DNA from: Aquella oligotrophica | GTDB taxonomy: Bacteria > Pseudomonadota > Gammaproteobacteria > Burkholderiales > UBA11063 | Assembly (NCBI RefSeq): GCF_002892535.1 | Contig: NZ_CP024847.1 | Location: 1,240,001 to 1,304,000, forward strand | Reading direction: 5' to 3' | Length of the DNA: 64,000 nucleotides | Program-made: the position numbers and the translations under genes | Notes under the pieces: model-generated | Databases searched by the model: none | What the model was told of the DNA's origin: nothing | Seen by the model: only the letters and a program-made list of their open reading frames with translations | In this document: piece after piece, positions 7,057-17,497 of the stretch | Numbering within the stretch: the first letter of the stretch is position 1 | How the letters are laid out: every line of letters starts with the position of its first letter

Positions 7057-7338
7057 TTAACGACAACCGTTAACAACTGCGGTTGGTGAATCACTAGCAA
7101 AATCACATTTTACATTTTTACCAGTAGTATCGTTTTTAAATTTTACCTCATACATACCATCATGTTTTTTCTCATCTGCAATCAGACAATTATCCTGTAC
7201 TTGTTTTAACGTTGTCGCAGTTGTGATATTTAGTGGCTTTCTATCTGGACTAGTTTGACATTTTAGTGTGCTCATATCCAATGATGCAGCAAAAGATAAT
7301 ACAGGCAACGCCATAATAAGTGCTAATAATTTACGCAT
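7057..7338 (-). CDS. Small periplasmic/secreted protein with four Cys
   Basis: 93 residues from the ATG at 7338 (AAGG lies upstream); a longer frame to 7395 has no ribosome site and would mask the signal peptide. Residues 1-18 (MRKLLALIMALPVLSFAA) are a Sec signal peptide. The mature protein of about 75 residues has four Cys (LKCQT, DNCLI, VKCDF, NGCR), which could make two disulfides, and reads as a compact beta-rich domain. The family is not recognised. Its promoter shares the surface-gene architecture (7405-7451), which groups it with the lipoproteins and pilin. Confidence 0.75.
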   Translation of the reverse strand: MRKLLALIMALPVLSFAASLDMSTLKCQTSPDRKPLNITTATTLKQVQDNCLIADEKKHDGMYEVKFKNDTTGKNVKCDFASDSPTAVVNGCR

Positions 7339-7404: not shown

Positions 7405-7451
7405 ATTTTACATTAATACATAGTTAGTAGTTGTCCATTTTTGTGCCAAAA
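7405..7451 (-). promoter_or_regulatory. Surface-gene promoter, copy 1
   Basis: On the minus strand: TGGCACAAAAATGGACA, then 21 bases, then TAAAAT (7405-7410). The transcription start would be near 7398, giving a leader of about 60 bases to the ATG at 7338. The 17-bp element would be centred near -42, the position of a class II activator site; there is no proper -35 box at 16-18 bp. Confidence 0.7.
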
Positions 7452-7504: not shown

Positions 7505-9901
7505 CTATTGTCCACCAGATAACGGATAACCTGTTGTTGGAGCGCCACTTCCATAATATTGGCTAGGAATACTACCATCGAGGACAACAAAACTAAGTGT
7601 TTGATTTGGTTCTCCTGGGAAGAAACAATAACCATAACCACCAGTATTACCAGTTGTATTACATTGGGAAATTGTAATATCACCCAACCCAATAGTATAT
7701 AAATCATTCAGCGCCTGTGCAGTATTCACGATTCCAACCGCATAAGTCTGATCAGAAACATTAAACTGTAACCAATTACTAATAGAGCTGTTGTTAACTG
7801 GATATGCACTACAGCTACCATTAAATGATTCCATTGGGCATTGCAGACTCATACCACCATTACTATTATTATAGCTATAACCTAGATATAGCGGCAAAAT
7901 AGTACCATTTGGAGTTGTAACCTGAACATAACCCACCTCGGTATTACTTCCTCCACCGCTAGTTAATTCACCATTACTGCCCATATTAAAACCGATCATC
8001 AAATTAAAGTTATTGGAACTAATAATGGTATTACTACCCGCCCAGCTAGTATTATTCAAATACACACTATAGCCCTGATGCGTTGAATTGGTAACAAATG
8101 AGTTTACGCCACTAGCGACGTTGGGTGAGTTTGGATTCCAATAATCAGAGCAGGTATAAGGACTGATACAACTTTGCGTAGACCAATTGATGCCATTGGC
8201 ATTAGTAGTTAGGCTTGAAGATAATAACGACGCTCCTGGCTGAGTACTAAAATTAGCATAGGTATTACATTGCATAGTACCATGCGTATTTGCGCTAATT
8301 CCCGATTCTGAGCCGCTTACTGCTGGCATATTAGCACCCAGATTAGTTAATGGTGCGCTATAATTCGCACACCAGTTAAGGTTAATTGAATTAGTCTTAT
8401 TTTGTGCTGTTACCGCAGTTAATGTCGTACCGTCATAATAGCCTTGTGAAGGCGTCGTAAAAATTAGTGGACAATTAATTTGGTTATTGTTATACAAGTT
8501 TGAAGCGCACTGTTTGTACGCACCCAAATATGGATTTTCATAAAGATTCATACTTTCAATCCAGCTGCCGACTGGTACCTGATTAGTAGAAACCGCATAG
8601 CCCGTTGGATTTGTTGGACTTAAACTACCCTGCATAGTTTTGGCAATAGTGGCTAAATTAATCATGCTCTGATAACTTTCAGCATAATTATTGATTACCG
8701 CTTGCCCAGATAGCGCCGGATCGGTAAACGATGCAACCATTAAACTCAGATATAAGCCATTAATCATCTGCCCAAAAAACTTGGCAAGATTGGTTTGTGC
8801 CAAAATATAGGCATTATATGCTTCAGGGCTGCCTGGAGTACAGGTTCCCTTACAATTATACTGTGTTGCTAGTGGCAAAGCTGAACCATCTAATGGGTTA
8901 CTATACGGAGGGTTACTATACGGACTGGCATAACGAATATAGTTAGCAGTGGCTTCAATATTATACGCAGTTTGTAGCGAAGCTATTGATGATTCATAGA
9001 TATTGACCAAATACAAATTATAGCTATTTAAGTTGGAAACTAAATTTGTAGTAACACTATTGGCAATTGCGCTCCCACCAGTAAATGGAACATAATCTAA
9101 TACCAACGATTCCATTTCATAAAGCGCCCCGCCAAGATCGGTATAGTTTTGACTATTAATCGCGATATAAGATAAATTATAACTAGTTCCATTCCAAATA
9201 GTATCGCTTGTTGCATTGGTATTGGTAATCGAAGTATAATAAGAGCTGGTTGCCTGATAATCTAACCAAGTTGTATTATAGATATTTGCAAAATCCTTAA
9301 CCCCAGTAGGACTATTAACGAAACTTTCGATACTGTTATATTCATCAACAGTATTAAATAAGCTATTCCAGATTGGATAAACACCAATAACCGCATTATT
9401 GTAACTGACTAGACTATTATGGGTAGTATCCTGATTCATTTCAACAATTAGATTGGTAATATTATTATTTGCATCATTAAGATCGGTATTAATCTGCGTG
9501 GTAATCTCGGTTAAATACTGAATGCTGCTTTCGATGGCATTAAAATCAGAATTTAAGGTATTTTGTGGAGTATTGCCAGTAATTAAATCAAAGGTATCAC
9601 TAATTGCTTCTACACCATAATAGGCAAATTCGGCATAAGGCACCAAATCCATAATCCCAAACTTTGCTAAGCTAGAGGTAGTGTTACTGTTTAAAGATTT
9701 GGCAGTTAAATTACGTGGAGAAGTTGTATAATAGTTATAAAATTGCCCATCAATAATTTGGGGATTTATCGGACCATCGGTTACCGGGATTAGGTTATTA
9801 CTTGGATTAGAATTTGAACTATTCCCACCTGAGCTACAGGCACATAAACCAGCACCAAATAATAAAACTGCGGCTAAGTTTGATAAATTAGTTTTATTCA
9901 T
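7505..9901 (-). CDS. Giant Asn/Ser/Thr-rich lipoprotein 1 (798 aa), unknown
   Basis: Start ATG 9901 with AAGGACA just upstream. A lipoprotein signal peptide ends in LCAC (Cys at about 22), followed by a SSGGNSSNSN spacer. The mature 775 residues are unusually rich in Asn, Ser, Thr, Tyr and Gly with very few charged residues. An N-terminal region (about 80-330) reads as helical (EFAYYGVEAISDTFDL, IESSIQYLTEITTQINTDLND), and the C-terminal half is Cys-containing and beta-like. No known domain was recognised. It resembles in style, though not clearly in sequence, the next lipoprotein upstream on the same strand. A role as a surface adhesin or matrix protein is inference. Its own upstream region lacks a clear copy of the shared promoter motif. 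Confidence 0.8.
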   Translation of the reverse strand: MNKTNLSNLAAVLLFGAGLCACSSGGNSSNSNPSNNLIPVTDGPINPQIIDGQFYNYYTTSPRNLTAKSLNSNTTSSLAKFGIMDLVPYAEFAYYGVEAISDTFDLITGNTPQNTLNSDFNAIESSIQYLTEITTQINTDLNDANNNITNLIVEMNQDTTHNSLVSYNNAVIGVYPIWNSLFNTVDEYNSIESFVNSPTGVKDFANIYNTTWLDYQATSSYYTSITNTNATSDTIWNGTSYNLSYIAINSQNYTDLGGALYEMESLVLDYVPFTGGSAIANSVTTNLVSNLNSYNLYLVNIYESSIASLQTAYNIEATANYIRYASPYSNPPYSNPLDGSALPLATQYNCKGTCTPGSPEAYNAYILAQTNLAKFFGQMINGLYLSLMVASFTDPALSGQAVINNYAESYQSMINLATIAKTMQGSLSPTNPTGYAVSTNQVPVGSWIESMNLYENPYLGAYKQCASNLYNNNQINCPLIFTTPSQGYYDGTTLTAVTAQNKTNSINLNWCANYSAPLTNLGANMPAVSGSESGISANTHGTMQCNTYANFSTQPGASLLSSSLTTNANGINWSTQSCISPYTCSDYWNPNSPNVASGVNSFVTNSTHQGYSVYLNNTSWAGSNTIISSNNFNLMIGFNMGSNGELTSGGGSNTEVGYVQVTTPNGTILPLYLGYSYNNSNGGMSLQCPMESFNGSCSAYPVNNSSISNWLQFNVSDQTYAVGIVNTAQALNDLYTIGLGDITISQCNTTGNTGGYGYCFFPGEPNQTLSFVVLDGSIPSQYYGSGAPTTGYPLSGGQ

Positions 9902-10077: not shown

Positions 10078-12648
10078 TTATTGCCACCAGTTAAAACCGA
10101 AGAAATTACTAATTGGTGAGAATGTGAATGTTATTGTCTGCTGAATACTATTTACAGTAAAAGCATCTGTAGGATTGTTACTTAGAGCTAACCATGCCGT
10201 CCCACTTGGTGAACCACATAGGTAGTTATAACCATTTGGATTACCATAGCCATAGGCTATCGTTGAGTTGCCAGTATCAACATTTGGCAAATAGACACCA
10301 GCATAACAATGGCTTGGAGTATTTGTAGTGCCTGTAGTGGTAATAAAACCGCTAGTAGTATAAGAAAAATTCATTAGTAAACTGCCAGCAGCCAGCTGAG
10401 CGATACTAGGTATTTGAGTTGTTATACCAACGCCCCAAGTAGAGGTAGCGTAATTTTGACTTTTTGAGGAATCTTGTGTATAACTACCAGCGGCAATTAC
10501 CTTGTTTAATCCCACACTTTCGATTGTAGCTGGTGTAGTTTGCCCAAAAGTGATCATTGGCTGCGACTTATTTGAAGTGTAAGAAACAAAATAAAGCGAG
10601 CTTGTTGGATAGTTGACTAAATTACACACTTCTCCTCCAGCATCCAATGGTTGCCACCATTGTGTACAATTATAAGACGTACCATAATTATAGTAGGTAT
10701 TATTGTTTGTTGTACCCAAAGTTGGAGTTGTTACGCTTGGATAAATGTATCCACCCGTTGAAGCCGGTGAGTTTCCAAATTCACTTGAATTTTCTGACTG
10801 ATTAAAGTATGCCATTCCTAATTGAATCATGTTTCCACCACGAATCATATCTCCATTCCAATAGCCGGTACCTACTTCAGAATAATTAATTTCATATTGT
10901 AGTGCCACTGAATTATTTAGTAGTAACTCTTGTAGTGAACCAGAAGCAGGTGTTGAATTACCATAAAGCTGATAAACATTATTAGGTAACCCTGATAATG
11001 AGAAACTGGCATTTGAACTTTGCAGAACAATATTTTCATTACATTGTGATGGGTTTAGAGTTGGGTAGCTTTCCATGATTGCATCATAACAGTTATTTGC
11101 AACGGTAATTATTCGATTGGAGTCATTTAAATAGCTGTTAGCAATATTCTTGAGTACCGAAGCTTCATTACTGGTTGTTAAGCCAGGCATACTCCCTAGA
11201 AAATTAGCTCTGGCAGCCAAGGTATTCAGTTGATAAGCGACTCCGATTGCGTTAATAAGCGATGGAGCATAATTTGCATATGGGTCAACAATAGCATTAC
11301 TTTCTGATATGTTAGGGGAGTTTGCCGCAACTATCTGAATATTTGCATTAGTGACATTAGCAGAAACGGTTGGGTTTTTATAGCCACTTGATGTGATACC
11401 AGTTGCATTAATTGTATTAATATTGATTCCATCTGAAAATGGATAGAGTGTAGTATATGCTGTTGAATTTGTTGCCTCAACGGCTGTTTGCGCATATCCC
11501 ATTCCCGCTAAAATTGCACTAGACATGGCCGAATTGTAGTTTGAGCAAGCAGACATATCTGGAGGGTTTGCTGTACATGCAATATAGTTTGCACTTTCAC
11601 CAGCCATTGCATTTGCTATATATGAACTATAATAACTGGCGCTTTCACCGTATATAGTTTCAGTCTGTACAAATTGCACATCACCATATAAGTCATAAGT
11701 GAAATCAACCGCTGAATAATTACTACTATTAGAACTACTACTTGTATATGCGTTTGATACCGAGTCAGAATTATATCCGGCTGCGACCGAGTCTGAAAAA
11801 GATTGTGCAGCCGACTGTGAGCTTGCTGTAACATTCATGTTTAAGGTTGTTAAGATCCCACCAATATATGCTTCCAGGGCTGAAGATCCACAATTTTGTA
11901 AGAACTCATTTGGATATTGTTGATACATACTTTCTGAATTACTCGTCAGATTATTAGTAGAAGGTACCCCAGTTTGAACAACTGCTGCTAGCGCAGCAGC
12001 CAGATTATATGAACTGGTTGCATTGGCTGATTCATAACTATTAGCATAGGTATTGCTATTACTTGTGCTAAATCCTGCAAATCCTACTGATATATTATCT
12101 GAGTTTGAAACAGTGCTTTGGTTTTGTTGGTTTGCAGTAGTAACTACGAAGCTTGATGAAGAGCTAACAGTATCTGGTTCAATATACGGGTTAGAGGCAT
12201 AACACTCGCTATTTCCAGATCCTAAAAGTATGTTTTGTGTTGATGGGATAACCCCAAGAAATAGCCCGCCTGCTGTTGATTCGAAAGCATTTGACAACCC
12301 AGCTAATTTATTCATTTTAGCTTTTTTATTAGTATTTAATACTGGTGGATTACTAAAGCGAGCGTCCAATTGTGGTAATGCTTGTTCAAATTTGTTCAAT
12401 GAATCAAAAACATGTGTTTTTATATCAGATGGCATTTTACCTGGAATATAATGGACTCTTAATGCCGGATTTACTTTACCTGCTAAAAACATATCCCATT
12501 CATACAGTTTACCATCTTTTGTATATGCAACTATTTTTTGGTTAGTAGTAGCTGTATTTGCTGAAGAAGAACTACTTCCCGAGCTACAAGCAAATAATGC
12601 CGCACCCATAGTTAAAATGGCAATTAAATTAATTTTATTTCTTTTCAT
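10078..12648 (-). CDS. Giant Asn/Ser/Thr-rich lipoprotein 2 (856 aa), unknown
   Basis: Start ATG 12648 with GAAAGGAAA upstream. The lipoprotein signal peptide ends in LFAC (Cys at about 21), followed by a SSGSSSSSA spacer. Residues 40-120 hold a more ordinary region (KDGKLYEWDMFLAGKVNPAL, IPGKMPSDI); the rest is dominated by Asn, Ser, Thr, Ala and Tyr with Ser-rich low-complexity stretches around 180-310. The C-terminal 250 residues are Gly/Tyr/Asn-rich with several Cys (CTQWW, GEVCNL, HCYAG, YLCGS). No domain was recognised. It is transcribed from a copy of the shared surface-gene promoter. A surface-exposed, possibly glycosylated or fibre-like role is inference. Confidence 0.8.
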   Translation of the reverse strand: MKRNKINLIAILTMGAALFACSSGSSSSSANTATTNQKIVAYTKDGKLYEWDMFLAGKVNPALRVHYIPGKMPSDIKTHVFDSLNKFEQALPQLDARFSNPPVLNTNKKAKMNKLAGLSNAFESTAGGLFLGVIPSTQNILLGSGNSECYASNPYIEPDTVSSSSSFVVTTANQQNQSTVSNSDNISVGFAGFSTSNSNTYANSYESANATSSYNLAAALAAVVQTGVPSTNNLTSNSESMYQQYPNEFLQNCGSSALEAYIGGILTTLNMNVTASSQSAAQSFSDSVAAGYNSDSVSNAYTSSSSNSSNYSAVDFTYDLYGDVQFVQTETIYGESASYYSSYIANAMAGESANYIACTANPPDMSACSNYNSAMSSAILAGMGYAQTAVEATNSTAYTTLYPFSDGININTINATGITSSGYKNPTVSANVTNANIQIVAANSPNISESNAIVDPYANYAPSLINAIGVAYQLNTLAARANFLGSMPGLTTSNEASVLKNIANSYLNDSNRIITVANNCYDAIMESYPTLNPSQCNENIVLQSSNASFSLSGLPNNVYQLYGNSTPASGSLQELLLNNSVALQYEINYSEVGTGYWNGDMIRGGNMIQLGMAYFNQSENSSEFGNSPASTGGYIYPSVTTPTLGTTNNNTYYNYGTSYNCTQWWQPLDAGGEVCNLVNYPTSSLYFVSYTSNKSQPMITFGQTTPATIESVGLNKVIAAGSYTQDSSKSQNYATSTWGVGITTQIPSIAQLAAGSLLMNFSYTTSGFITTTGTTNTPSHCYAGVYLPNVDTGNSTIAYGYGNPNGYNYLCGSPSGTAWLALSNNPTDAFTVNSIQQTITFTFSPISNFFGFNWWQ

Positions 12649-12716: not shown

Positions 12717-12763
12717 ATTATAAATCTATCAACGGGCGAATATTGTCCACTTTCGTGCCAACT
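12717..12763 (-). promoter_or_regulatory. Surface-gene promoter, copy 2
   Basis: On the minus strand: TGGCACGAAAGTGGACA, 21 bases, then a perfect TATAAT (12717-12722). The -10 lies about 70 bases upstream of the lipoprotein ATG at 12648. The 301-base gap 12649-12949 between the two divergent genes holds this promoter and the weaker plus-strand site at 12837-12880. Confidence 0.75.
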
Positions 12764-12836: not shown

Positions 12837-12880
12837 TGACAAGCAATAGGACAGAGGAGCCAGCAAATTCTCGAAAAAAT
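12837..12880 (+). promoter_or_regulatory. Degenerate copy of the shared element before the LuxR-type gene
   Basis: TGACA-N7-GGACA (12837-12853) is followed after 21 bases by AAAAAT (12875-12880). This is one mismatch in each of the first half-site and the -10 box compared with the four strong copies, with all spacings kept. It points toward the regulator gene and ends 97 bases before its ATG. It could be a weak autoregulatory promoter. Confidence 0.4.
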
Positions 12881-12949
12881 ATGCAAATAATCAATTAATT
12901 TAGTATAATAAACTTTGTCCAATTAACGTTTCCCTTATATACCTTGATT

Positions 12950-13672
12950 ATGACTGACGAAAAAGCTTTACAGTTAATTGCAGAAGCGAATGATACTGTT
13001 TTTGATGGCAATTATAATTTGATTGCTAATCTAGATTACATTGTGATTAGTGCTGATAAATTTGGTGCTGCACTTACCAATACGCCTGGTGGTTCATATT
13101 TGGGTAAAAATCTCCTCACCATGACCAATGATGAATGGCGAACTGATATCTATCGTAAATCTTTAGAATATTGTAAGCAAACCAGACAAAGTAAACAATG
13201 GTTATCACTTAAATTTGCACGGAGACCAGAATACTGGTTGATAATCATTAGTTTTCAGCCACTAGTAAACTATGCTACGAATAATGTGATTGGTTATAAA
13301 ATTACCGGACGTGTACCGGAAAATATCATGCTGCCATTTTTTGGCTTAAAGGAGATTATAAAAGAAAGTCAGCCTCGTAAACGGGAACTAGGTAGCAAAA
13401 CTGATGAATGGTTAACTAACCGGGAGCATGAGGTTTTATTTTTGTTATTTAACTGTGATACCTATCAGCATATTGCTAATTTATTAAGTCTCAGTCATCA
13501 AATTAACTATACCAGCTCCATGGTTGCAAAGATAGTTAATCGTAACTTATATGCTAAATTTAATGTTTCTAATCTTGAGTCTCTAAAAAAACTGGCATAT
13601 CAAATGGGTTATCATAAAAATATTCCAGCATCACTCTTTGGCGAATTTATGTTGCCACTAAATAAATTATAA
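12950..13672 (+). CDS. PAS-LuxR-type transcriptional regulator
   Basis: 240 residues from ATG 12950; a TTG six bases earlier is possible and neither has a clear ribosome site. Residues 1-130 resemble a PAS-like sensor (NLDYIVISADKFGAALTNTP, ...GYKITGRVP). Residues about 152-215 form a LuxR/GerE-type helix-turn-helix beginning LTNREHEVLFLLFN and continuing YQHIANLLSLSHQ...VNRNLYAKFNVSNLESL, which matches the usual LTxREhEVLxLl...a.I...L.iS..TV...l..i..KL.v.n. layout. An insertion-like INYTSS stretch replaces the usual TV core, so the recognition helix is atypical. It sits among the surface genes that share one promoter element, and is the obvious candidate regulator; that link is inference. 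Confidence 0.8.
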   Translation: MTDEKALQLIAEANDTVFDGNYNLIANLDYIVISADKFGAALTNTPGGSYLGKNLLTMTNDEWRTDIYRKSLEYCKQTRQSKQWLSLKFARRPEYWLIIISFQPLVNYATNNVIGYKITGRVPENIMLPFFGLKEIIKESQPRKRELGSKTDEWLTNREHEVLFLLFNCDTYQHIANLLSLSHQINYTSSMVAKIVNRNLYAKFNVSNLESLKKLAYQMGYHKNIPASLFGEFMLPLNKL

Positions 13673-13696
13673 AGCTGCCAATTTCGTGGCAGCTTT
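13671..13696 (+). terminator. Intrinsic terminator of the LuxR-type gene
   Basis: AAAGCTGCCA (13671-13680) and TGGCAGCTTT (13687-13696) form a ten-pair stem with a six-base loop, followed by more T. It overlaps the stop codon and lies between convergent genes, so it may also serve the DUF1554 lipoprotein. Confidence 0.85.
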
Positions 13697-13707
13697 TTTA
13701 GATCAGC

Positions 13708-16251
13708 TTACTGAGTAATTACGCAGTAGTGTTTATGTGTCGCAGTACATGCGTTACTAGAAGTTGATCTCCAACCCGAAGCATTGGTATTTGCCATTCC
13801 ATATTCTCCTGTTCCGCTGGTTGTTGTCCAATTAGAGCAGTTAGAACCCGCACCATCATTAACCCCACCTGTCCATACACCACCTTGATATGCAGCATCA
13901 ATAGGATTCCATAGACTATTTGCATTGCCAACTAGATTATCAAAGTTACCATTTGCTGCGATTCCAACCGGTTCATAGTTTTTATTCCAGTATAAGCGCC
14001 CCGGGATAGTAGCATTATTTCCGCGTAGTAGGGCTTTTACATCGCTAACATAATACGGATTACCCGTAGGATGCATATCATTAAACGAACACAGACTATC
14101 AGCTGTAGCGTAGCCACCACTACCTGCCGCACCAGACAAATTATTTGATAGAGTGATGTAGGAAGTTTTTCCACTATCAACAATGTAAGCAATTTGGTTA
14201 ATAGTATTAGATGAGTCAGTCATATTAGTAAATCCAAAATTTCTATCGATATTACTAGCAAACGGTGTCGCTATTGCATAAATATTACATTCCTGATTTG
14301 AACTGATAACACAGTCAAAAACACCGTTACGCGTCCAGTTACCATTGGCATCAACAAAGCTTACGCCATCATTATTCGTAAAAATTCGGATTTCTTTTGG
14401 ACCAATATTATTTCCCATAATCTTCAAGTTTAACTTAATATATTGCCCTTGAGCCATGTGGTAATAACCATCGCTAGCACGCTCAACACTAGGAGTAACA
14501 ATTACCGAATATGCGAGACTAGCACTGAAATAGAAATTTCGGGTAGTTGTTAGGGTTGCTCCATTCGGTCTTGCCTGATCTGTCCAATTGGCAACCGTCT
14601 GGACATTACTAAAATTATTACTACCGCTACTATTAGTGGTTATAGAATAGGTAACATTACAAACCGCACCGTTATTAAAGGTTATTTTAGAATTTAGCGT
14701 GCCGCAAGTCGTACTAAATAGCTGCCAACCATTACTAAGTCCTGTCGTACTAACATAGAAATTCTGCGCTGGCTGATTACCCGTATTCGTATAAGTAAAA
14801 CTTATATAAGCAGTCGCTCCAATATTAAAAATCCATGGGTCGCCTATAGTGCCCGCTCCAGAGACTACTCCTCCAGTTGATGGGCTTGCAATTGCATTTA
14901 TTGTTGCATACGTTGCGTTTGCAGTTAAAAGTCTGAATTTTCTGCTATAGTTCTTACGAACACCATTTGCTAGATAATTTCCATTGATATTTATATTAAA
15001 TTGAGCTACAGTAAAAGCAGAAGTCTCTGAAAGGGTAAAGCTACAGCTTGCTAGCGAATGCAGGCTACTACAATTACTATTGCTGATAGTGCCTGGGACT
15101 GAACTTAAATTAATGCTTTCAAGAGTATTTTGTCCTAGGTTTTGAATAGTTATTATTGTAGCTGCCTGATTATTATAATAAAGAATCGGGTTTTGTGCCG
15201 CAGTTACACCCATCTGCATTACAGAAGATTTTGAATTATACCAAGATAATGTCTGGGTTGAGTGCTGTTGATAATGGATAGTTAAATCACCACTTCCGTT
15301 ATTTGAGTTTGATTCAATATTGAAATAAATATAACAATAAGCATTAGCATTCAAGCTGGAATTACATCTATTAGCACCATTAGCTGCTACAGTACTTTCT
15401 GGATAACTAATCTGGCTAATTTGTGCGGACTCAGTCCCAGAATTAAAAACTACTACCGAACCACTACGCTGATTTAAAGTGTTGATTACTGGAGTCGCGC
15501 CGAAAGTCAGGAATGCACCATTAGGCATTGGAACAACTTCTAGTGGTGCAGATATAGAATAATTATGATTGTCTTCATCATGAACCAATGCGCTTAATTG
15601 ACTATTTTTTATAGTTTCACTATTTTTTAGATTATGGATTTCAACTGCTGTAATATAGTGTTTACTCCCAGCTTCTGCCTCCTGATATTTACTGATGTTA
15701 ATTAGATTACTATCGCTGGCTATCTTGTCTAAATGATAGTTTTTATTAGTTGCTGAATACAAATATACAGTATGATATTGATTATGTGAATTATCTAAAA
15801 TCAGATTATCGCTGAATTTAAACTCTCCCTGCGATGCCTCTTTTTCATCGATTAATGCATAACGGATTAATTGTCTGATAGATGTGCCGTTCTGGCTAGC
15901 TTCAATGATTGCACTTCCAGTGTGTGTTTCTTCACTAAGTAATGGAGTAGTGATATTAAGCTCACAAGTTTCACCAGCTTTTATCGACTCGCAATTAGTA
16001 GCATCTATAAGTAGACTACCACTATCTACCTTATAGCTAATACCATTCAAGTCCTGATTACCATTATTATGAATAAATAATACCGTTTTAGTCTGATCAC
16101 CAGCAAATACTGGAACTACTCCCGGGCTATCAATAATCAATTCGTCAATTGTTTGCCCCGGATTATTACTAATCGTGCTTCCACCTGAGTTATTACATCC
16201 ACTGATTACTAACACCGCGCTTATAAAACATAGCAAATTTGTAAATTTCAT
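13708..16251 (-). CDS. Large lipoprotein with beta-sandwich repeats and a C-terminal DUF1554 domain
   Basis: 847 residues. The lipoprotein signal peptide ends in VISGC (Cys at about 19). The middle (about 30-690) reads as repeated immunoglobulin-like/CARDB or choice-of-anchor beta-sandwich units, each with patterns such as VLFIHNNGNQDLNGISYKV ... C-x-x-(I/L)-x-x-G-x-x-C, and TITIQNLGQNTLESINLS, VVFNSGTESAQISQISYP, ISFTYTNTGNQPAQNFYVS. The last ~120 residues (SLCSFNDMHPTG...VKALLRG...GRLYW...GVWTGGVND...CSNWTTTSGTG...KHYCVITQ) match the DUF1554 pattern known from spirochaete and other outer-surface lipoproteins. Probably an outer-membrane adhesin-like stalk with a terminal head domain. It is driven by the shared surface-gene promoter. 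Confidence 0.8.
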   Translation of the reverse strand: MKFTNLLCFISAVLVISGCNNSGGSTISNNPGQTIDELIIDSPGVVPVFAGDQTKTVLFIHNNGNQDLNGISYKVDSGSLLIDATNCESIKAGETCELNITTPLLSEETHTGSAIIEASQNGTSIRQLIRYALIDEKEASQGEFKFSDNLILDNSHNQYHTVYLYSATNKNYHLDKIASDSNLINISKYQEAEAGSKHYITAVEIHNLKNSETIKNSQLSALVHDEDNHNYSISAPLEVVPMPNGAFLTFGATPVINTLNQRSGSVVVFNSGTESAQISQISYPESTVAANGANRCNSSLNANAYCYIYFNIESNSNNGSGDLTIHYQQHSTQTLSWYNSKSSVMQMGVTAAQNPILYYNNQAATIITIQNLGQNTLESINLSSVPGTISNSNCSSLHSLASCSFTLSETSAFTVAQFNININGNYLANGVRKNYSRKFRLLTANATYATINAIASPSTGGVVSGAGTIGDPWIFNIGATAYISFTYTNTGNQPAQNFYVSTTGLSNGWQLFSTTCGTLNSKITFNNGAVCNVTYSITTNSSGSNNFSNVQTVANWTDQARPNGATLTTTRNFYFSASLAYSVIVTPSVERASDGYYHMAQGQYIKLNLKIMGNNIGPKEIRIFTNNDGVSFVDANGNWTRNGVFDCVISSNQECNIYAIATPFASNIDRNFGFTNMTDSSNTINQIAYIVDSGKTSYITLSNNLSGAAGSGGYATADSLCSFNDMHPTGNPYYVSDVKALLRGNNATIPGRLYWNKNYEPVGIAANGNFDNLVGNANSLWNPIDAAYQGGVWTGGVNDGAGSNCSNWTTTSGTGEYGMANTNASGWRSTSSNACTATHKHYCVITQ

Positions 16252-16292: not shown

Positions 16293-16339
16293 ATTGTAGT
16301 TGAGACATACTCATAAAACTGTCCATATTCATGCCAAAA
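16293..16339 (-). promoter_or_regulatory. Surface-gene promoter, copy 3
   Basis: On the minus strand: TGGCATGAATATGGACA, 21 bases, then TACAAT (16293-16298). It lies between the pilin stop (16349) and the DUF1554 lipoprotein start (16251), so the lipoprotein has its own promoter with a leader of about 35 bases. Confidence 0.75.
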
Positions 16340-16348
16340 AGACGAATA

Positions 16349-16813
16349 TTACGGCTGATTTCTACAGCTAGAAGGTACATAATCTTGATAGTTTGGCTGT
16401 ACGATACACGTCCAATTGATACCGGATGCCGAGGGTGAACCTAAAATTGCAATTGAAAAAGTAGTTAGACCACTGATTGCTAGCGTAACTAAGATAGCTA
16501 TCTGCTCGCCTTGAGAGTCATAGCGTACATCAACTCCTGCGACATTTGTCCCGGTTATACTTGCTGCAGCTGGCAAACCAAAGTCAGTATTTAACGAACC
16601 GCTACCATTTGGGAATGAGCCATTAGTCTGATAGTATTCACTAACAGCTACTTTTGCCATGTCAGCAAAAGTAATTGCCTCAGATACTTTTGCTCTAATT
16701 ATATAGTTCTGATATGCTGGTATTGCAATTGCTGCTAAAATACCAATGATGGCAACTGCTATCATTAGTTCAATAATTGTAAATCCTTTATTTGTATTCA
16801 TATTTTTATCCAT
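16349..16813 (-). CDS. Type IV pilin (major-pilin-like, PilA/PilE type)
   Basis: 154 residues from ATG 16813, where AAGG lies four bases upstream; the ATG 12 bases later has no such site. The prepilin leader ends NTNKG and is followed by [20 protein letters not shown], the conserved N-methylated helix with Glu5. PilD would cut between Gly and Phe. The C-terminus has a Cys pair ([18 protein letters not shown]) as in the disulfide loop of major pilins. Type IV pili mediate adhesion, twitching and DNA uptake. The gene has a ~200-base leader and the shared surface-gene promoter. No other pilus genes lie in the window, so the pilin may be the major or an accessory subunit. Confidence 0.9.
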
Positions 16814-17018: not shown

Positions 17019-17065
17019 ATTTTAATTTAGTGTTGGTTTGAGGTTTGTCCTTGTTTGTGCCACTT
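17019..17065 (-). promoter_or_regulatory. Surface-gene promoter, copy 4 (pilin)
   Basis: On the minus strand: TGGCACAAACAAGGACA, 21 bases, then TAAAAT (17019-17024). The predicted start lies near 17012, about 200 bases before the pilin ATG. Confidence 0.7.
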
Positions 17066-17161: not shown

Positions 17162-17497
17162 TTATTTTGCTTTCTTAGCAGTTTTTGCTGCTGGTTTAGC
17201 GACTGCTTTTGGCTTTGTAGCCTTATTAGCAACGGCATCTTTAAGACCTTTGCCAGGCTTGAATTTTGGTGTAACAGTTGCTTTAATTTTTATTTCTTCC
17301 CCGGTCTTAGGATTACGTCCCGTACGCGCGGCTCTTTCAGCAACTTCAAAAGTACCAAAACCAATAAGTGTAACCTTATCCTTAGCTTTTAAAGTAGCAG
17401 TTACAGATTCTGTAATCGCATCTAAAACTTCATCAGCCAATTTTGCAGTAATACCTGTTTGTTCAGCAATACTTTTTACTAATTCAGCTTTATTCAT
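17162..17497 (-). CDS. HU-type DNA-binding protein with Lys/Ala-rich tail
   Basis: 111 residues; the first 90 match HU/IHF (MNKAELVKSIAE ... LIGFGTFEVAERAARTGRNPKTGEEIKI ... FKPGKGLKDAV), including the beta-arm RNPKTGE with the DNA-intercalating Pro. The last ~20 residues are a Lys/Ala/Pro-rich extension not found in the short E. coli HU but seen in some proteobacterial HU proteins, and it probably adds non-specific DNA affinity. The protein bends and compacts DNA. An AAAGGA ribosome site precedes ATG 17497, and a clear sigma70 promoter lies at 17529-17558. Monocistronic. Confidence 0.9.
   Translation of the reverse strand: MNKAELVKSIAEQTGITAKLADEVLDAITESVTATLKAKDKVTLIGFGTFEVAERAARTGRNPKTGEEIKIKATVTPKFKPGKGLKDAVANKATKPKAVAKPAAKTAKKAK

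Follow-up and report, generated by a model that had tools for sequence, protein, structure and literature searches.

The window analysed here, a 64,000-nucleotide stretch of the Aquella oligotrophica P08 genome (2,820,660 bases in one contig; habitat, tap water), contains a gene for a putative PAS-LuxR regulator with a LuxR/GerE-like C-terminus, and this gene is flanked on both sides by genes that carry the same short DNA element upstream. The locus raises the question of which protein reads this element, and whether the regulator in its midst governs its neighbours, itself or both. The published description of strain P08 (PMC6612550) mentions neither a regulator nor LuxR, PAS, lipoprotein, pilus or secretion. 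The regulator ORF spans 12944–13672 with a TTG start, and the ATG at 12950 is an alternative start. A two-way terminator-like stem lies at window 13671–13696, between the regulator and the convergent lipoprotein gene 13708–16251.

The element, TGGCA-N7-GGACA, is present in five exact window copies. Four are intergenic, all on the minus strand and upstream of genes, and each is followed by a TANAAT −10 hexamer exactly 21 nt downstream (N21; Table 1); the fifth (14589, +) lies inside the lipoprotein ORF 13708–16251. A scan for canonical −35/−10 promoters missed all four window element promoters, none of which has a −35 hexamer at the right spacing. Element 1, as we call it, is an imperfect dyad, TGNC-N9-GNCA (TGGCAY-N6-GGACA), centred 30.0 nt upstream of the −10 start; its symmetry is weak, with a score of 3.0 when only pairs complementary in every one of the five members are counted. 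The genes downstream are predicted targets; for the small exported-looking protein, a Pfam search returned nothing at E 0.01. Lipoprotein gene 7505–9901, downstream of 10078–12648, lacks an element of its own and is a possible co-transcribed target.

Table 1 Features of the regulator locus (window positions) and of candidate elements elsewhere (genome positions).
Feature	Position	Strand	Details
PAS-LuxR-type one-component regulator gene	12950..13672	+	ORF, ATG start
Predicted target: 856-aa lipoprotein gene	10078..12648	−	ORF, lipobox by eye; element 96 nt upstream
Predicted target: 847-aa lipoprotein gene	13708..16251	−	ORF; element 69 nt upstream
Predicted target: type IV pilin gene	16349..16813	−	Pfam Pilin 2.8e-14; element 233 nt upstream
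Predicted target: small exported-looking protein, 93 aa from internal ATG	7057..7338	−	ORF; element upstream
798-aa lipoprotein gene	7505..9901	−	ORF; downstream of 10078-12648
Predicted operator TGGCACGAAAGTGGACA	12744..12760	−	−10 TATAAT at 12722-12717; upstream of lipoprotein gene 10078-12648, divergent from regulator
Predicted operator TGGCATGAATATGGACA	16320..16336	−	−10 TACAAT at 16298-16293; upstream of lipoprotein gene 13708-16251
Predicted operator TGGCACAAACAAGGACA	17046..17062	−	−10 TAAAAT at 17024-17019; upstream of pilin gene 16349-16813
Predicted operator TGGCACAAAAATGGACA	7432..7448	−	−10 TAAAAT at 7410-7405; upstream of small-protein gene 7057-7338
Degenerate copy TGACAAGCAATAGGACA, candidate weak autoregulatory site	12837..12853	+	N21-AAAAAT; noise-level score
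TATAAT, likelier −10 of regulator's own promoter	12904..12909	+	direct reading
Candidate element A GTGGGTnTTTnTGCCCnTATAC	587596; 591317	; −	591317 is the regulator's own promoter
Candidate element B CTAAGTAAAAATGTAGTTGTT	1221018; 1226662
Candidate element E AGAYAAAATCATCTATTG	2444953; 2450077
Candidate element F GTCAAAwTTGAC	251298; 317358		across loci; score 32.9, below cut-off of counts
Element C CTTCTATwwATAGCTATAT	2391118; 2394415; 2397269; 2435086		L121, L122

The element on which the earlier note relied is borne out by the genome: the 2.82-Mb sequence contains seven exact matches and none to the reversed pattern, with the −10 at N21 in all four window promoter copies. Beyond the window, the exact match at 845245 was rejected as lying within an ORF (463 aa, fumarase by eye). 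The other, at 2008429, is accompanied 79 bp away by a one-mismatch copy at 2008508, and both stand between the closest paralog of the window regulator (hereafter the sister) and a divergent gene for an 870-aa lipoprotein. One of these tandem copies is 17 nt from the sister's start codon and the other is 9 nt before a TATAAT that faces the sister. Promoter-type copies therefore amount to six sites at two loci: four in the window, 2008429 and 2008508. TANAAT is found exactly at N21 in five of the six (2008508 has TAGAAT), the exception being 2008429 with ACATAT.

A 23-column PWM built from the six sites scored them at 29.9–36.4 (19.7–34.6 on leave-one-out), and everything else at no more than 11.0 across 471,334 bases of paralog loci and no more than 13.1 across 991,596 own-genome bases (about one-third of the genome), where eight other places scored 10.9–13.1. 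Looser forms are background. With two mismatches the window has 33 matches against 40.4 expected, and with up to one mismatch there are 125 genome places compared with 44 for the reversed pattern, nearly all of those examined lying inside ORFs. Among the 103 of these 125 that we covered (94 in fetched stretches and nine in 23 loci), 12 fell outside ORFs of 70 aa, comprising the six sites, the copy at 12837 and five that scored below 10, and only the six sites were both non-ORF and above noise. One-mismatch sites such as those at 621309, 926016, 1405830, 1918258 and 1482087 were rejected because they lie within ORFs.

In the 23 genus genomes together, the exact pattern occurs 36 times (seven of them in this genome) and the reversed pattern 13 times. 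The earlier note had held that finding the element in relatives lacking the regulator would speak against the assignment, and no such case emerged: among the 27 examined of the 29 matches in the other 22 genomes, none is an intergenic copy with a −10 at N21. Twenty-six lie inside ORFs (one of only 76 aa), and the remaining match (L158) is at a locus without a downstream ORF. Conservation of a promoter-type copy across species was likewise not found, including in the two genomes (G022 and G002) with relatives that are 48% and 41% identical.

Self-control by the regulator, also proposed in the earlier note, hinges on the degenerate copy at 12837, which is present with the spacing described: TGACA-N7-GGACA, with one mismatch and AAAAAT after exactly 21 nt. 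No other sense-strand match in the 301-bp region upstream of the regulator scores higher, and a score this high came up in just 2 of 5,000 dinucleotide shuffles and at 2 of the 238 other promoters compared. However, that score, 10.8, falls far under those of the six sites and within noise, which reaches 13.1; its −10 is poor, while the regulator has a perfect TATAAT at 12904–12909; and the sister regulator has no element facing itself (best score, −10.8). In favour of such control, the 2008508 site would cover the −35 region of the TATAAT facing the sister, making self-repression plausible there, and at locus A a regulator's own promoter (591317, −) bears the locus element. Overall, we consider it rather unlikely that the window regulator also controls itself through the 12837 copy.

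A pointer to the protein that reads the element came from the sister regulator (2007693–2008412), which is 55% identical to the window regulator. In the recognition-helix region (residues 189–203), the sister matches the window regulator at 13 of 15 positions, whereas none of the 52 remaining aligned paralogs exceeds 7 of 15; over residues 155–210 it has 43 of 56 matches and the next best paralog has 29. Identity in the N-terminal part is 71/151 (47%). The sister thus shares the helix residues and the element despite its diverged sensor part, so that operator sharing follows helix sharing. What the DNA shows directly is where the sites lie, that their spacing is fixed and that they occur together with the regulator and a helix-matching paralog. 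Since promoter-type copies were found only beside the window regulator and this paralog with a near-identical helix, the PAS-LuxR gene is the likely regulator of the neighbouring surface-protein regulon, as the earlier note had supposed.

Alternatively, the PAS-LuxR gene might be a bystander and the element be read by another factor, such as sigma-54, a LysR-type protein or a regulator encoded at an unlinked locus. Sigma-54 promoters have a −24 box like TGGCAC, which the element resembles, and a −12 box with GC 5 nt after TGGCAC; this GC is missing in all six sites, which have GA instead, and a sigma-70 −10 is present in five of the six. A LysR gene (by eye; L038 13936–14847) lies about 5 kb from the sister site, and another element, C, tracks at another locus with a pair of LysR proteins that are 48% identical, but no LysR gene was recognised at both loci of element 1, none having been seen in window 1–20 kb. 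Near the window sites, no other specific transcription factor was recognised among 13 ORFs searched with Pfam and the rest of 1–20 kb inspected by eye; the gene at 17162–17497 was read by eye as that of HU, a general DNA-binding protein. With the PAS-LuxR pair the only specific regulator recognised at both element loci, a reading by some other factor is distinctly unlikely.

We propose that the PAS-LuxR protein encoded at 12950–13672 is a dimeric one-component regulator that would bind the imperfect dyad, which would occupy the −35 region with its centre about 30 nt upstream of the −10 start (around −42). Once bound, it would act as a class II activator, bringing RNA polymerase to promoters with a −10 but no usable −35. 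In the window, its targets would be the genes for the two large lipoproteins, the type IV pilin and the small exported protein, and the lipoprotein at 2,008,581 would be a further target, through the sister regulator or cross-talk with it. We infer binding, dimerisation, a ligand-controlled PAS domain and activation rather than repression; the class II mode is suggested by the constant N21 and by the lack of a −35 in the window promoters that carry the element. Binding as a repressor is very unlikely: sites over the −35 region could block polymerase, but four window promoters with no −35 at the right spacing and a fixed N21 are expected of class II activation.

How the protein might sense a signal was approached through its domains, which are faint in the window protein and clearer in its family. 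By itself, the window protein matched GerE below the Pfam cut-off (E 0.0085; 16.1 bits against 23.5), had no PAS match at E ≤ 1 and had no AHL-binding or receiver domain by Pfam; its AlphaFold model was poor (mean pLDDT 48.4). Within a 15-member family alignment, 4 members matched GerE at E ≤ 0.1 (best 0.00069), 5 matched PAS at the same threshold (best 0.0026) and 3 matched PAS_9 (best 0.00062), and some family members also matched PAS_4, PAS_8 or PAS_10 at E ≤ 0.1. PDB chains with a GerE domain were also hit by the family profile. An L-T-x-R-E start and the HTH scaffold are conserved across the family. The PAS-like domain named in the earlier note is thus undetectable in the window protein alone and supported at the family level. 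The HTH insertion that the note had described as unusual and in the core is real, comprising six extra residues (183–188) relative to 19 short-turn paralogs, but it sits in the turn between the scaffold and recognition helices and belongs to the subfamily at large rather than to this gene: 35 of 54 aligned paralogs have an extended turn (six residues in 21, five in 14).

The best PDB matches of the family profile (A1) were 6ugl, 6kju and 6ide (E 1.6e-8 to 1.8e-8, with the C-terminal part matching best); 7dwm matched at E 2.9e-8 over 29–234 of 242, N-terminal part included. The match takes in the C-terminal tail with its 'iP..Ll' motif. We take these four chains to be VqmA proteins; the window protein alone matched them weakly (E 0.19–0.48). 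According to PMC10426928, residues F67, F99 and K101 of VqmA are critical for its ligand DPO, which is made by Tdh in Vibrio. Window residues I102 and F104 align with F99 and K101 (mapping inferred; F67 unmapped), and since F104 aligns with the ligand-critical lysine, the ligand of the window regulator probably differs from that of VqmA. The column of residue 104 holds a lysine in 23 of 54 paralogs, some of which may keep a DPO-like pocket. A tdh (threonine dehydrogenase) gene scores over the curated cut-off at genome 282665–283708 (−). VqmA redox cysteines are given as C48, C63 and C134 in PMC7387800; the cysteines of the window protein are C77 and C171 only. By analogy, a small-ligand or redox signal, as the earlier note had suggested, is plausible.

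The nearest known counterpart is VqmA of Vibrio cholerae and phage VP882, a quorum-sensing receptor with a combination of PAS, LuxR-type HTH and C-terminal tail that the window protein probably shares. VqmA binds palindromic promoter DNA (GG-N6-CC, GG-N9-CC) and activates the small RNA gene vqmR, as stated in PMC8284805. The predicted Aquella targets are surface-protein genes rather than vqmR; the window protein has I102 and F104 in place of F99 and K101, and it carries a turn insertion that the PDB chains presumed to be VqmA lack. It may therefore work like VqmA without being filed as VqmA. PimM-type PAS-LuxR activators of Streptomyces have a 16-bp palindromic operator in the −35 region of their targets, with one consensus, CTVGGGAWWTCCCBAG, across several species (PMC9774167). 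Compared by description, the window protein would resemble them as a one-component PAS-LuxR activator with an operator in the −35 region; PimM-type proteins share one consensus, whereas the operators of Aquella paralogs appear diverged. Classical LuxR/TraR and NarL-type activators offer a probable likeness in their GerE-type HTH and in the class II position near −42, where the lux box lies, and a difference in that the window protein has no matched AHL-binding or receiver domain and an extended HTH turn. An extended turn, altered ligand residues, a large one-genome family and apparently private operators would set it apart from known PAS-LuxR activators.

The family itself is large. Its profile matched 59 times in this genome, in 57 ORFs (about one per 50 kb). 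At E ≤ 1e-6, 20 of the 23 genomes of the genus had a match, with counts of 29, 26, 25 and 25 following the 57 here (several genomes being incomplete drafts). In a sample of 200 genomes of the order, seven had a match, six from the genus and one weak. The family of approximately 57 PAS-LuxR paralogs is nearly confined to this genus. In the family alignment the scaffold is conserved, while the exposed positions of the recognition helix differ widely. Our literature search, which covered few subscription papers, found no earlier report on a PAS-LuxR family in Aquella; expansion of LuxR genes is described for Streptomyces in PMC3466318.

Signs of further private operators came from comparing the 26 bp located 17–43 nt upstream of −10-like hexamers among 423 promoters in 34 paralog locus clusters; a first promoter comparison, swamped by duplicated DNA, was replaced by later ones. 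This de novo comparison recovered element 1 as a five-member cluster at N21. Among pairs scoring at least 34, 7 of 11 fell within one locus, or 5 of 9 without element 1 (a count that still includes two element C pairs), against about 5% expected. The overlapping region 30–56 gave 1 same-locus pair of 9, and four regions further upstream in the paralog loci gave none at 32 or more. In 20 control loci without paralogs (326 promoters), there was no pair at 33 or more at 17–43, one of two pairs at 32 was same-locus, and the two furthest upstream regions had one same-locus pair each at 33 or more (1/1 and 1/2).

Each of three other PAS-LuxR loci (A, B and E) has a different element of its own at this distance, and element F adjoins two regulators with near-identical helices. 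Dyad centres lie 30.0 nt from the −10 start for element 1, 32.5 for A and 31.5 for both E and F; element B has no clear dyad centre. Inverted repeats sorted by distance from −10-like hexamers peak at 31–32 nt (7 at 32.0, threshold 12), but other distances reach up to 4–6, and this distribution is not decisive. Element C, centred best at 27.5, is found upstream of a pilin, lipoproteins and another gene; it was rejected as a PAS-LuxR operator because the LysR pair is present at both of its loci, and LysR is probably its owner. Two further sets of cross-locus pairs, D (576083/1047472) and G (42620, 2007383, 2596458), were set aside, as the recognition helices next to them are unlike. The element B copies (L145), 21-bp identical and beside a PAS-LuxR paralog, precede an efflux-like run of MFS, HlyD and outer-membrane-factor genes (by eye) and a second gene for a membrane protein.

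Together, these comparisons raise the possibility, which we hold tentatively, of an array of approximately 57 paralogous PAS-LuxR sensors that differ in ligand pocket, have one private class II operator apiece and are individually wired to neighbouring surface lipoproteins, pilins or transporters. The array is an extrapolation, because elements were found for a minority of paralogs only. An extended HTH turn and a hypervariable recognition helix would provide the means to gain new specificities without cross-talk. If true, the 2.8-Mb genome would supply a naturally occurring set of about 57 related one-component sensors, the operators of some being readable. It could then be tested directly how the DNA specificity of paralogous transcription factors diverges while cross-talk is avoided, and there would be a route to the small-molecule signals of a poorly studied freshwater lineage. 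Ready-made test cases would be the window and sister pair, in which helix and operator match and the sensor has diverged, and loci A, B, E and F, where helix and operator both differ.

Paralog neighbourhoods are enriched in lipoprotein genes: 24 of 52 paralogs have a gene for a lipoprotein of at least 300 aa no more than two genes away, compared with 39 of 221 control-locus genes (Fisher p 3.7e-5, with neighbours not independent; when tried on 8 known lipoproteins, the lipobox rule failed to find 1). Over half of the paralogs therefore lack a lipoprotein neighbour of that size. Three lipoprotein genes, at 117048–119627 (−), 588305–590410 (+) and 2340348–2343146 (+), begin with the same N-terminal sequence and are preceded by about 300 bp of identical DNA; they differ in length (701–932 aa) and look like cassettes beside PAS-LuxR genes.
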